A stretch of 40,484 nucleotides of DNA. Source: Alphaproteobacteria bacterium. GTDB taxonomy: Bacteria; Pseudomonadota; Alphaproteobacteria; Sphingomonadales; JAKSBY01. Position numbers and translations under genes: made by a program. Shown here piece by piece: positions 2,743 through 16,106 of the stretch. The notes under the pieces were generated by a model. The model searched no databases. It worked only from the letters and a program-made list of their open reading frames with translations, and was not told where the DNA came from. Each line of letters starts with the position of its first letter. Positions within the stretch are counted from its first letter, which is position 1. Where the stretch lies: the NCBI GenBank assembly GCA_021774625.1, contig JAJFIV010000013.1, positions 1 through 40,484 on the forward strand, read 5' to 3'.

Positions 2743-3480
2743 TCAAATCATTGTCATGCCGCCATTCACATGCAACGTATGGCCGGTAATGTAACGCGCC
2801 TCCTCGCTGGCAAGAAACGCGACCGAGGCCGCAATATCATCGGGCGCGCCCATTTCCCCGGCCGGAATATTCGCCAGAATGCGGGCTTTCTGATCATCCG
2901 TCAAGGCGTCGGTCATGGCGCTCAGGATAAAACCCGGCGCCACGCAATTCACCGTGATGCCGCGGCTCGCCACTTCCTGCGCCAGGGATTTCGACATGCC
3001 GATCAGCCCGGCCTTGGCCGCCGCGTAATTGGCCTGGCCCGGATTGCCGGTGACGCCAACCACGCTGGTAATGGCGATAATCCGCCCCCAGCGATTTTTC
3101 ATCATGCCCCGCAAAGTCGCCCGGGACAGGATAAACGCCGCCTCCAGATTGGTTTTAAAAACATCGCCCCATTCCTCGTCTTTCATGCGAAGTGCCAGAT
3201 TATCCCGCGTGATGCCCGCATTGTTGACCAGAATATCAATTCCGCCCATGGCCTCGGCGGCCGCCTTCGGCAGATTTTCAAGACTGGCCCGGTCCATCAG
3301 ATTGGCCGGCGTGACATAGGCGCGATCCCCCAGCTCATCCCGCAGTTCCTTCAAAACGGCTTCTCGGGTTCCTGACAGGGCAACCGCGGCCCCCTGGGCA
3401 TGAAGACGGCGGGCAATGGCGCTGCCAAGGCCACCGGTCGCGCCGGTTACCAATGCTTTTTTTCCAGACAGATCAATCAT
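2743..3480 (-). CDS. fabG: 3-oxoacyl-ACP reductase
   Basis: FabG reduces beta-ketoacyl-ACP to beta-hydroxyacyl-ACP with NADPH, the first reduction in each elongation cycle. The 245-residue SDR protein shows TGATGGLG (residues 12-19) for cofactor binding, NNAG at 86-89, and the catalytic tetrad Asn111, Ser139, Tyr152 and Lys156 (YAAAK). It ends in HTLHVNGGMTMI, a typical FabG C-terminus. The ATG at 3480 is chosen over an upstream in-frame start at 3537 because GGAGG sits 6 nt before it and the protein then starts at MIDLSGKKALVTG. It follows fabD by 31 bp and is almost certainly cotranscribed with it. Confidence 0.96.
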   Translation of the reverse strand: MIDLSGKKALVTGATGGLGSAIARRLHAQGAAVALSGTREAVLKELRDELGDRAYVTPANLMDRASLENLPKAAAEAMGGIDILVNNAGITRDNLALRMKDEEWGDVFKTNLEAAFILSRATLRGMMKNRWGRIIAITSVVGVTGNPGQANYAAAKAGLIGMSKSLAQEVASRGITVNCVAPGFILSAMTDALTDDQKARILANIPAGEMGAPDDIAASVAFLASEEARYITGHTLHVNGGMTMI

Positions 3481-11575: not shown

Positions 11576-11680
11576 CTTCGATACACCCCCCACTTCGCGG
11601 TGGCGCTCAGGATGAACGGGAGCGTCAATGTCAAGCAGCTTGCCGCTTGCACTGAGTAGCCTCGAACAGACGTATCGAAG
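11576..11680. repeat. REP-like palindromic intergenic element
   Basis: CTTCGATAC (11576-11584) and its exact reverse complement GTATCGAAG (11672-11680) bound a 105-bp stretch. It contains a CCAC-TTCGC-GGTGG hairpin and text such as CTCAGGATGAACGG. This resembles the dispersed intergenic palindromes common in sphingomonad and related genomes. It lies between the mlaF stop and the radA promoter. Copy number in this genome cannot be judged from one window. Confidence 0.5.
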
Positions 11681-11724
11681 TGTGGCTGCCTTTCTCACTT
11701 GCAATCAGCCTTTCATAACGCTAT

Positions 11725-11739
11725 GTTCCTCATATGTTC
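11725..11739. promoter_or_regulatory. LexA-type SOS box upstream of radA
   Basis: GTTC-CTCATAT-GTTC matches exactly the alphaproteobacterial LexA operator GTTC-N7-GTTC. It ends 19 bp before the radA ATG. A position overlapping the transcription start and a repair gene directly downstream both fit SOS repression. Chance occurrence of 8 fixed bases is not negligible in 40 kb, but the placement is apt. Confidence 0.65.
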
Positions 11740-11758: not shown

Positions 11759-13120
11759 ATGGCGAAAGCGCAATTGAGTTATGCCTGCCAGTCCTGCGGG
11801 TCATCTTACCGGAAATGGTCGGGCCGCTGTGATGCCTGCGGGGAATGGAACAGCATTGCCGAGGAACGGACCGCCCTGTCTTCCGTCCCCAAAGGGCTCG
11901 GCCACAAGCGCGGCAATGTGATTGAACTGGTGACATTGAAAAGTGAAGCCCGCGATGTGCCGCGTTTCGCCTCCGGCATTCAGGAATTTGACCGTGTTTC
12001 CGGCGGCGGGCTGGTGCCAGGATCGGCGGTTCTGATCGGCGGCGATCCCGGGATCGGCAAATCGACGCTTTTGCTGCAGGTGCTGGGCGGCCTTGCGACC
12101 CAAAGCGGCGGATGCCTCTATATTTCCGGCGAGGAAGCGGCGGATCAGGTGCGCATGCGGGCCCGGCGGCTGGGCTATGCCGATGCCGATATGCACCTGG
12201 CGACGGCGACCAATGTGCGGAATATCCTGACCACGCTGGATGCCGGGCCCCCTCCCCGCGTCGTCGTCATCGATTCGATCCAGACGCTTTATGTGGACAG
12301 CCTCGATTCCGCCCCCGGCACCGTGGCCCAGGTCCGCACCTCTGCCCATGAACTGGTCAGCTACGCCAAACGCAAGGGCGTCGCCATGCTGATTGTCGGC
12401 CATGTCACCAAGGACGGCCAGATTGCCGGCCCGCGCGTGCTGGAGCATATGGTCGATACAGTGCTTTATTTCGAAGGCGACCGCGGCCATCAGTTCCGAA
12501 TCCTGCGGGCGGTCAAAAACCGCTATGGCGGCGTCGATGAGATTGGCGTCTTTGAAATGACCGGCAAGGGCCTGATGGAAGTCTCCAATCCGTCCTCGCT
12601 GTTTCTGACCGACCGCCAGACGCCGGTGGCGGGTTCCGCCGTTTTTGCCGGTCTGGAAGGCTCGCGCCCCGTTCTGGTGGAAATTCAGGCGCTGGTGGCG
12701 CCGACCCCTGCCGCCAACCCCCGACGCGCCGTGGTCGGCTGGGATTCCGGCAGGCTTGCCATGGTGCTGGCCGTGCTGGACGCCCGCTGCGGATTGGGGC
12801 TATCGGGGGCAGATGTGTATCTGAATGTGGCAGGCGGTCTTAGAATAGGCGATCCGGCGGCGGATCTGGCGGCCGCCGCGGCGCTCGTCTCCTCCCATCT
12901 GGACCGGCCGTTGCCCGAGGGCACGGTTTTGTTCGGTGAAATCAGTCTGGCCGGGGAAGTCCGGCCTGTCGCCCAAGCCGATGCCCGCCTTAAAGAAGCC
13001 GCAAAGCTGGGTTTTACACGGGCCCTGATACCTGCAGGCAGTAAAAATATCGATTCGCCGATGGAAATCGCGACCTTTGAAAAATTACAGGACCTAGTTG
13101 ACCTGCTGTCCGGTCGCTGA
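11759..13120 (+). CDS. radA: DNA repair protein RadA
   Basis: RadA (Sms) is a RecA-related hexameric ATPase that promotes branch migration during recombinational repair. The 453-residue protein has the N-terminal zinc finger Cys10-x2-Cys13...Cys24-x2-Cys27, Walker A GGDPGIGKST (94-103), Walker B VVVIDSIQTL, the RadA-specific KNRYG motif near residue 257, and a C-terminal Lon-protease-like domain (DVYLNVAGGLRIGDPAADLA). An AGAGGA ribosome binding site precedes the ATG. A LexA-type box overlaps the likely promoter. It is followed after 33 bp by cvpA and purF in the same direction, so all three may share transcripts. Confidence 0.96.
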   Translation: MAKAQLSYACQSCGSSYRKWSGRCDACGEWNSIAEERTALSSVPKGLGHKRGNVIELVTLKSEARDVPRFASGIQEFDRVSGGGLVPGSAVLIGGDPGIGKSTLLLQVLGGLATQSGGCLYISGEEAADQVRMRARRLGYADADMHLATATNVRNILTTLDAGPPPRVVVIDSIQTLYVDSLDSAPGTVAQVRTSAHELVSYAKRKGVAMLIVGHVTKDGQIAGPRVLEHMVDTVLYFEGDRGHQFRILRAVKNRYGGVDEIGVFEMTGKGLMEVSNPSSLFLTDRQTPVAGSAVFAGLEGSRPVLVEIQALVAPTPAANPRRAVVGWDSGRLAMVLAVLDARCGLGLSGADVYLNVAGGLRIGDPAADLAAAAALVSSHLDRPLPEGTVLFGEISLAGEVRPVAQADARLKEAAKLGFTRALIPAGSKNIDSPMEIATFEKLQDLVDLLSGR

Positions 13121-13153: not shown

Positions 13154-13846
13154 ATGGATGGCATTGGTCTAACCCCCTTCGACATTATTATTATTATGAT
13201 TCTGGCGGTGTCGGCGCTTTTTGCATTCGGCAAGGGCTTTGTCACGGAAGTGCTGAGCCTTGCGGCCTGGGCCGGGGCGATTCTGGTGACGTTATACGGG
13301 CTCGCCTGGGCGGCTGGTTATGGCCGGGAATACATCTCGCCCGAACCATTGGCGGATATGATCACGGCGGCGGTTCTCTTTTTTGCCAGCCTGGTTTTAT
13401 TCAAGCTGCTGGGCAGCTTTATCGGTGATCGGGTGCGTATGGGACCGATCGGTTTTCTCGACCGCTCGCTCGGCGCACTGTTCGGCCTGATCCGTGGCAT
13501 CCTCATTGTCAGCGCCGGATATCTGTTGCTGAATGTTTTTCTTTCAGAAAAACGTCAGCCCGACTGGGTTCAGGAAGCCAAACTGATTCGCTTTGTTTCC
13601 TACGGCGCGGAAATGCTGTCGGAAATTGTGCCGGAACTGCTTTCCCGGGCAAAGGAAGACGAAGAAGTCGAGGAAATTCTCGAACGGATGCGGGAAAATA
13701 TGCCGAGCGCCCGCGGTTCAACCGAAGATGACGAGACCGCTTATGATGCGCTTCAGCGCAAAGCGCTGGATGCGGCCATCGATATTTACCGGGAATCAGG
13801 CGCAGCGGATGAAAAAGATAAGGGAAAAGAGCCAGGGAGTAATTAA
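13154..13846 (+). CDS. cvpA: CvpA family membrane protein
   Basis: CvpA is an inner-membrane protein first linked to colicin V production and later to envelope stress tolerance; its biochemical role is unsettled. The 230-residue protein has the family opening LTPFDIIIIMILAVSALFAFGKGFVTEVLSLAAWAG. Further transmembrane helices lie near residues 36-52, 72-90 and 110-130, and a long charged cytoplasmic tail is rich in Glu, Asp and Arg. A purine-rich GGGGGAGAGAG stretch precedes the ATG. It lies directly upstream of purF, the same neighbour as in E. coli. Confidence 0.9.
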   Translation: MDGIGLTPFDIIIIMILAVSALFAFGKGFVTEVLSLAAWAGAILVTLYGLAWAAGYGREYISPEPLADMITAAVLFFASLVLFKLLGSFIGDRVRMGPIGFLDRSLGALFGLIRGILIVSAGYLLLNVFLSEKRQPDWVQEAKLIRFVSYGAEMLSEIVPELLSRAKEDEEVEEILERMRENMPSARGSTEDDETAYDALQRKALDAAIDIYRESGAADEKDKGKEPGSN

Positions 13847-13868: not shown

Positions 13869-13889
13869 ATGAGTATGACATCGTCATGA
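13869..13889 (+). other. Six-codon leader ORF coupled to purF
   Basis: ATG at 13869 reads MSMTSS and stops at TGA 13887-13889, overlapping the purF ATG as ATGA. It has a GGGG ribosome-binding-like sequence about 8 nt upstream, while purF itself has little. It may hand ribosomes to purF; translation is not proven. Confidence 0.3.
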
Positions 13890-15370
13890 AACGGACGCAT
13901 CATCCAGAAGATTTCACGACCAATCCCTTTGATGATGACAAGCTGCATGAAGAATGCGGCGTTTTCGGTATTTTCGGCTCCGACGATGCCGCCAAACATG
14001 TGGTCCTCGGGCTTCATGCGCTCCAGCACCGCGGGCAGGAAGCCGCCGGGATAACATCCTTCGACGGCCAGCAATTTTATACCGAGCGCGCCATGGGCCA
14101 TGTGGCGGACAGTTTCTCATCGCAGCCGGTCATCGACAAGCTGAAGGGCTTTACCGCCATTGGCCATGTCCGTTATTCGACCACCGGCGAGACGGCGCTG
14201 CGCAATGTTCAGCCGCTGTTTGCCGAGCTGTCTTCAGGCGGGTTCGCCGTGGCCCATAACGGCAATCTGACCAATGCCGCGCATATGCGCAAACAACTGG
14301 TCCGCCAAGGCTCGATTTTCCAGTCCACTTCCGACACCGAAGTCTTTATCCATCTGATTGCCACTTCCACCTTCCGCACCCTGATGGACCGTTTCATCGA
14401 TGCCTTGCGCAAGGTCGAAGGCGCCTATTCCCTGGTGGTTTTGACTCGCGAAGGCATGATCGGCGCACGCGACCCCCTGGGCGTGCGGCCGCTGGTATTG
14501 GGAAAGCTGGATGACGATACGCATATTCTGGCGTCCGAGACCTGCGCGCTTGATATCCTTGGCGCGGATTTTGTCCGCGATATCGAGCCCGGTGAAATTG
14601 TCACCATTTCCAAATCCGGCATCAAGTCCATCAAACCTTTTCCGCCGGCCAAGCCCCGGCCCTGTATTTTTGAACATGTCTATTTTTCCCGGCCCGATTC
14701 CTATCTCGATGGCATGAGTATTTACGAAGTCCGCAAACGCATTGGCGCAGAACTGGCCGGAGAGAGCCCGGTCGAGGCGGACCTGGTGGTGCCGGTTCCT
14801 GATTCCGGTACGCCCGCCGCCATCGGCTATGCGCAGGCGGCGGGCATTCCGTTTGAGCTTGGGATCATCCGCAATCATTATATCGGCCGGACTTTCATCG
14901 AACCCGCCGATCATATTCGCCATCTGGGCGTAAAACTGAAACACAACGCCAACCGCTGGCAACTGGATGGCAAACGGGTGGTTCTGGTCGATGATTCCAT
15001 TGTCCGCGGCACGACGTCCGTCAAGATTGTCGATATGGTCCGCCAGGCCGGCGCCAGGGAAGTCCATATGCGCATCGCCAGCCCGCCGACGGCTCATTCC
15101 TGCTTTTACGGGGTGGATACACCGGAACGGGACAAGCTTCTGGCCTCCCGCATGGATGTGAAAACCATGCAGAAACACATCAATGTCGACAGTCTGGCTT
15201 TCCTCACCATCGACGGATTATACAGGGCCGTCAATGAGGACAAACGCCATGCCGCAGCCCCGCAATATTGCGATGCCTGCTTTACCGGCGAATATCCCAC
15301 CCATCTGACCGATCAGGATGAGCGGGAAAACGCCGATCAGTTCACCCTGATATCGCTGCAGCAAAACTGA
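13886..15370 (+). CDS. purF: Amidophosphoribosyltransferase
   Basis: PurF catalyses the first committed step of purine synthesis, transferring glutamine amide nitrogen to PRPP to form phosphoribosylamine. The 494-residue protein has a 23-residue N-terminal extension that is probably cleaved to expose the nucleophile Cys24 (EECGVFGIFG). The class II glutaminase domain includes HVRYSTTGE and HNGNLTNA. The phosphoribosyltransferase domain has the PRPP loop VVLVDDSIVRGTTS and the ARD/RPL residues of GARDPLGVRPLVLG. The DKLHEECGVFG lead-in is typical of alphaproteobacteria. The ATG at 13886 overlaps a tiny upstream frame. It is followed 4 bp later by an SDR gene. Confidence 0.97.
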   Translation: MKRTHHPEDFTTNPFDDDKLHEECGVFGIFGSDDAAKHVVLGLHALQHRGQEAAGITSFDGQQFYTERAMGHVADSFSSQPVIDKLKGFTAIGHVRYSTTGETALRNVQPLFAELSSGGFAVAHNGNLTNAAHMRKQLVRQGSIFQSTSDTEVFIHLIATSTFRTLMDRFIDALRKVEGAYSLVVLTREGMIGARDPLGVRPLVLGKLDDDTHILASETCALDILGADFVRDIEPGEIVTISKSGIKSIKPFPPAKPRPCIFEHVYFSRPDSYLDGMSIYEVRKRIGAELAGESPVEADLVVPVPDSGTPAAIGYAQAAGIPFELGIIRNHYIGRTFIEPADHIRHLGVKLKHNANRWQLDGKRVVLVDDSIVRGTTSVKIVDMVRQAGAREVHMRIASPPTAHSCFYGVDTPERDKLLASRMDVKTMQKHINVDSLAFLTIDGLYRAVNEDKRHAAAPQYCDACFTGEYPTHLTDQDERENADQFTLISLQQN

Positions 15371-15374
15371 CGGC

Positions 15375-16106
15375 ATGGCGGGCAAACTTCAGGATCGTAT
15401 TGCGCTGATCACCGGAGCCTCCCGCGGCATAGGCTATGCCGTGGCCAGGGGTTTTGCCGCTGAAGGAGCGCATGTGATTGCGCTGGCCCGCACCTCCGGC
15501 GCGCTGGAAGAACTGGACGATGAAATCAAACAGGCGGGCGGCGGCGGAGCAACACTGGTGCCGCTGGATATCCGCGACGGCGAGGGTATCGACCGGCTGG
15601 GCGCCAGTATCTTTGAACGCTGGGGAAGACTGGATGTCTTTATCGGCAATGCCGGGATTTTGGGGCCGTTATCACCGCTGCATCACATATCCCCCAAAGA
15701 CTGGGAGGAACTTGTGGCGGTCAACCTGACGGCAAACTGGCGATTGATCCGCTCCCTTGATCCGCTGCTGCGCGCATCGCCCGCCGGCCGCGCCGTGTTT
15801 GTATCTTCAGGAGCCGCCAGTATAAATACACCCTTCTGGGGCGGCTATGGCACAACCAAGGCGGCGCTGGAATATCTGGCAAAAACCTATGCCGCAGAAG
15901 TCGCTGAAACCTCAAACATCAGGGTCAATATCGTCAATCCCGGCGCCACCCGCACCGCCATGCGGGCCAAAGCCATGCCCGGCGAAGATTCCGATATATT
16001 GCCGCAGCCATCCGAACTCGTGCCACTTTTCCTGGAACTCGCAAGCGGCGGCTGCCTGGATAACGGTCGGGTCTTTGACTTTCGGACCTGGAAGCAAATC
16101 CATTAA
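15375..16106 (+). CDS. SDR family oxidoreductase
   Basis: This 243-residue classical short-chain dehydrogenase/reductase has the Rossmann motif TGASRGIG (residues 14-21), a GNAG element (in place of NNAG) near residue 91, Ser in FVSSGAAS and the catalytic YGTTK, and [11 protein letters not shown] after the active site. It ends in [13 protein letters not shown] rather than the GG-rich FabG ending. The substrate is unknown. It starts 4 bp after the purF stop and is probably cotranscribed; purF followed by an SDR is a recurrent arrangement in alphaproteobacteria. Its TAA overlaps the convergent kinase stop. Confidence 0.85.

Follow-up and report, generated by a model that had tools for sequence, protein, structure and literature searches.

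The window, a stretch of 40,484 nucleotides from an alphaproteobacterium of the order Sphingomonadales, carries on its forward strand a series of genes headed by radA, with a predicted promoter and a predicted operator directly upstream. The features of this locus are as follows:

11699 to 11727, forward strand: predicted sigma-70-type promoter TTGCAA-N17-TATGTT (read from the sequence, spacing computed)
11725 to 11739, forward strand: predicted LexA operator (SOS box) GTTC-CTCATAT-GTTC, an exact match (the radA box stands at the same place in most genomes of family f6 and in genome G003 of family f3)
11759 to 13120, forward strand: radA/sms, DNA repair protein RadA, 453 amino acids (NCBIfam TIGR00416, 568.7 bits, cut-off 403)
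13154 to 13846, forward strand: cvpA-like membrane protein, 33 bp after radA (PF02674 Colicin_V, 101 bits)
13886 to 15370, forward strand: purF, amidophosphoribosyltransferase, 39 bp after cvpA (TIGR01134, 511 bits)
15375 to 16106, forward strand: SDR-family oxidoreductase, 4 bp after purF (PF00106, 167 bits)

The domains matched in the radA product are a zinc ribbon, a KaiC/RecA-type ATPase and a ChlI/Lon-type C-terminal domain, so that the three traits that define RadA/Sms (N-terminal zinc ribbon, RecA-like ATPase, and Lon-like C-terminal domain) are all present. The terminator scan detected no terminator-like site in the gaps of the radA-cvpA-purF-SDR series. A common transcript of radA, cvpA and purF, suggested as possible in a preliminary description of this DNA, is plausible from the short gaps, and the SDR gene is possibly its last member.

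The box itself, GTTCCTCATATGTTC, is a 15-mer that reads GTTC-CTCATAT-GTTC at positions 11725-11739 (forward strand) and matches GTTC-N7-GTTC exactly; 19 bases (TCATTAAGAAGAGGATGTT) separate its end from the radA ATG at 11759. Both the letters and the distance agree with those first described. The exact match alone is not significant, because 0.85 matches are expected by chance in the window, where one is found (at least one match appeared in 55 of 100 shuffles), and because the whole genome contains 64 matches against 44 for a reversed-pattern control. Since the motif statistics are weak, the case has to be made from the regulon and from conservation; it is the leader position together with the conservation, and not the motif alone, that gives the radA box its significance. 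Five of the seven spacer bases are A or T, which makes this spacer less A/T-rich than those of the dinB and mmcB boxes described below.

The first GTTC half-site overlaps the -10 element (TATGTT) of the predicted promoter. The consensus promoter scan returned nothing at the radA leader, the predicted promoter being below the threshold of that scan. LexA bound at the box would lie over the -10 element and the likely start point of this promoter. Control of radA could be partial if there is a basal promoter or if transcription reads through from mlaF. The gap between mlaF and radA also seems to contain a small dispersed repeat: a second 15-mer, GCTCAGGATGAACGG, located at 11605-11619, has five copies in the genome and none in the control.

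LexA and its predicted sites elsewhere in the genome

LexA is the repressor that keeps repair genes silent until DNA is damaged. This genome encodes a single LexA (C1:155629), with a DNA-binding HTH domain and an autocleavage S24 domain. Sites in the genome were located by pattern searches and by reading the neighbouring genes, and the core SOS genes examined for a box were lexA, dinB, mmcB, uvrA and recA. The lexA gene has its own AT-rich box, GAACTAAAATAGAAC, shortly upstream of its start. Exact AT-rich boxes are located just ahead of the dinB start (C33:246853), upstream of an mmcB-like gene (C20:234329) and at uvrA (C23:119768), in the last case overlapping the start codon, while the sequence upstream of recA on C33, GAACAAAACATGTAC, differs from the GTTC direct repeat by one mismatch. 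Because these five genes carry exact or near copies, the genome can be said to use the alphaproteobacterial SOS box GTTC-N7-GTTC. Other SOS genes had been expected to carry this motif with this spacing if the operator was real, a different motif being what would count against it, and the expectation held for lexA (exact), uvrA (exact, with the start overlap) and recA (one mismatch).

A spacer rule derived from the radA boxes of sphingomonads (Y at +4, W at +8 and T at +10) retains 10 of the 64 sites of this genome, including those of dinB, mmcB and radA. The variant GTTC-N7-GTAC, relative to which the recA box is the reverse form, was rejected as a general second motif: it has 9 sites, fewer than the 28 of the control, and the few inspected were not accompanied by an SOS gene.

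Some of the remaining sites precede genes of other types. AT-rich exact boxes are found 23 bp before the predicted start of a PA0069-family radical SAM gene (G000:C27:131872), about 35 bp before that of an MT-A70 methyltransferase gene (G000:C20:292520), and 279 bp before that of a Ppx/GppA-type exopolyphosphatase gene (G000:C1:26167); these three genes are candidates for further regulon members. In addition, a box identical to that of dinB lies about 190 bp upstream of mraZ, the first gene of the dcw cell-division cluster (G000:C23:42935-42949; 3436-3450 in extracted locus L115 and 1311-1325 in L254). Among 26 other relatives, 6 likewise have an exact box of this type 200-290 bp upstream of mraZ, and they belong to f5 (L259, L260, and L262), f7 (L266 and L270) and f8 (L261). 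The mraZ box possibly places the dcw cluster, or a small gene in between, under SOS control, and it may hold more interest than the radA box. A search against Rfam gave no match to a known RNA, either within the window or around the mraZ box.

Conservation of the box and promoter geometry

The box followed by a radA-like start pattern was detected in 258 of the 398 genomes of the order, while the control pattern matched in one genome. By family, according to counts tallied by hand, the box precedes radA in about 256 of the 314 genomes of f6, in the genome studied here and in G003 (f3), and in none of the 82 remaining genomes of the order (G001 of f1, and families f2, f4, f5, f7 and f8). The large sister family f6 is inferred to be the Sphingomonadaceae, given that the best match of a stretch of its genome G038 in a plasmid collection was Sphingomonas parapaucimobilis (86.7% over uvrA); f5 corresponds to the Kordiimonadaceae. 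Of 13 f6 genomes drawn without bias from a RadA search, 11 had an exact box (in one of them in the GAAC orientation), and the remaining two carried ATTC-N7-GTTC, with one mismatch, at the same place. The only genome of the same family (f1) that was compared, G001, has a truncated radA, and conservation is thus read from other families. A comparison of the radA upstream region in relatives, as proposed in the preliminary description, does not speak against the operator, with one qualification: the box is kept in most of f6 and in G003, and is absent in f2, f4, f5, f7 and f8.

This distribution does not follow protein similarity, as the RadA proteins of f5 and f7 are about 70% similar to that of the genome studied here and lack the box, whereas those of f6 are about 60% similar and have it. 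An exact lexA box is detectable in most members of f5 and in some of f2 and f7, and for this reason a boxless radA in these families does not equal an absent LexA system; the lexA pattern matched nothing in f4 and f8, a result from which absence should not be concluded. The predicted membership of radA in the SOS regulon is, in this sense, lineage-specific. Outside the order the box before radA is rare, L044, L045, L047, L094, G497 and G632 being among the genuine cases, and a search for the GAAC orientation before radA across the class yielded one genuine radA match only, that of G497. Two other matches in the class, G463 and G680, look like unrelated sequence and were discarded. On the RadA tree there are at least nine changes of box state, and therefore gain or loss of the operator has happened repeatedly.

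The position of the box relative to the promoter was examined in 37 distinct box-bearing radA leaders of f6 and f3, drawn from L197-L226 and L236-L245, plus the leader of the window. The invariance of the half-sites in this set arises by construction, as the search pattern required them; the independent evidence comes from the flanking columns and from the unbiased sample. The flanking columns are near random except for a conserved -35-like TTG that immediately precedes the first half-site and a conserved -10-like TA five bases after the second. The spacer from TTGCGT to this TA is 17 bp, and therefore the box sits between the -35 and -10 elements in most of f6. Across the lineages the operator stays and the promoter moves: the box overlaps the -10 element in the genome studied here, in G003 and in G058, and the -35 element in most f6 sphingomonads.

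Proposed regulation and comparison with known systems

We infer, with a probability of about 0.9, that the radA box is a functional operator of the single LexA of this genome, the binding of LexA, the repression, the induction and the read-through along the operon all being predicted from sequence. The operator assignment made at the outset is well supported by the boxes of lexA, dinB, mmcB and recA in the same genome and by the radA boxes of f6. In an undamaged cell, LexA on the GTTC direct repeat would cover the -10 region of radA and block RNA polymerase. After damage, RecA filaments formed on single-stranded DNA would lead to the self-cleavage of LexA, and radA would be derepressed alongside recA, lexA, dinB, mmcB and others. 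RadA/Sms would then aid RecA in branch migration and fork processing. The cvpA, purF and SDR genes may be co-transcribed, and some rise in their expression would be a passive consequence of an ancient gene order.

The co-transcription of purF has been given a larger meaning, namely that DNA damage might also raise purine synthesis. It is rather unlikely that damage raises both RadA and PurF by read-through from a LexA-controlled promoter and so ties the first step of purine synthesis to the SOS response, and we are still more doubtful that the selected role of the operator includes the supply of purines via purF in the damage response. In favor of such a role, the gaps of 33, 39 and 4 bp are accompanied by no internal promoter better than chance, besides being free of terminator-like sites, and G003, which has the box, retains the radA-cvpA-purF order. 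On the other hand, of 109 loci of relatives, 100 have cvpA directly after radA and 83 have radA-cvpA-purF, mostly without the box. The order predates the operator, because it is common in boxless relatives, and it is general among Alphaproteobacteria, whether they have the box or not. Moreover, purF is not adjacent to radA in the 13 f6 loci (11 of them with an exact box), in which the usual genes downstream of cvpA are an iron-sulphur scaffold-like one and a transporter-like one (both named by eye only); therefore, the box tracks radA and not purF. The SOS-induced genes in the available part of a Sphingopyxis granuli study likewise include radA and not purF (PMC6472365). With the gene order also present in boxless genomes and purF not beside radA in the f6 loci, the purine link is unsupported as a conserved function; read-through into purF may occur in the genome studied here, as a by-product.

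It is very unlikely that the match arose by chance from a motif of low information content, with eight fixed bases. About 44 of the 64 genomic matches, and 0.85 in the window, are indeed expected by chance, and the radA genes of f5 and f7, which are the nearer families, lack the box. However, the chance of a match within one given 60-bp leader is only about 9e-4 (from the control density), and the box recurs before radA in most of f6 and in f3, with scattered cases in other alphaproteobacteria, against the single control match in 398 genomes. Least probable of all is that LexA binds here but acts weakly or as an activator, as implied for the LexA of Rhodobacter sphaeroides at recA by a paper title cited in PMC6813329, with an operator-promoter geometry that varies between lineages (over -10 here and in G003 and G058, over -35 in most of f6), since a box over the -10 element is the classical repressing position and since radA is induced together with lexA in the S. 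granuli data available (PMC6472365).

Reading the radA box as a LexA operator assigns radA firmly to the predicted SOS regulon of the sphingomonads and of the lineage studied here, while five neighbouring families exclude it. This would be a clean case of regulon rewiring in nature: radA keeps its operator, while the geometry of the promoter and the genes downstream change. The prediction that follows is that DNA damage induces radA in sphingomonads and not in Kordiimonas.

Among the known systems, Mycobacterium tuberculosis presents a 12-fold induction of radA (Rv3585) by moxifloxacin, but the gene is grouped there under DNA repair genes and not in the listed SOS regulon (PMC7911356). This bacterium belongs to another phylum and has another LexA motif, and mycobacterial radA forms an operon with disA and not with cvpA-purF (PMC11653572). 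Another is Caulobacter crescentus, whose LexA regulon has the box GTTC-N7-GTTC (da Rocha et al., 2008, cited by PMC9578287; see also PMC4211646). The same eight fixed bases and 7-bp spacing are found in the radA box and at lexA, dinB and mmcB in the genome studied here; however, a DNA-repair survey of Caulobacter, in the sections available, has radA (CC1660) as a recombination gene only, unlinked to an SOS box (PMC1839093). A third is Sphingopyxis granuli TFA, in which, according to the part of the RNA-seq report that is available, anoxic growth with nitrate raised lexA and recA 6-fold and radA 5-fold, radA being tabulated with lexA, recA, dinG and imuAB-dnaE2 as 'SOS DNA repair system' (PMC6472365). 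These data are supportive but not proof, because the condition was anoxia, with neither a DNA-damaging drug nor a lexA mutant in the portion consulted. The likeness thus consists in the co-induction of radA with SOS genes, and the difference in the family, in the nitrate-respiring anoxic condition and in evidence from expression only (PMC6472365). The LexA regulon is a known network, to which radA very probably adds one predicted member in this genome.
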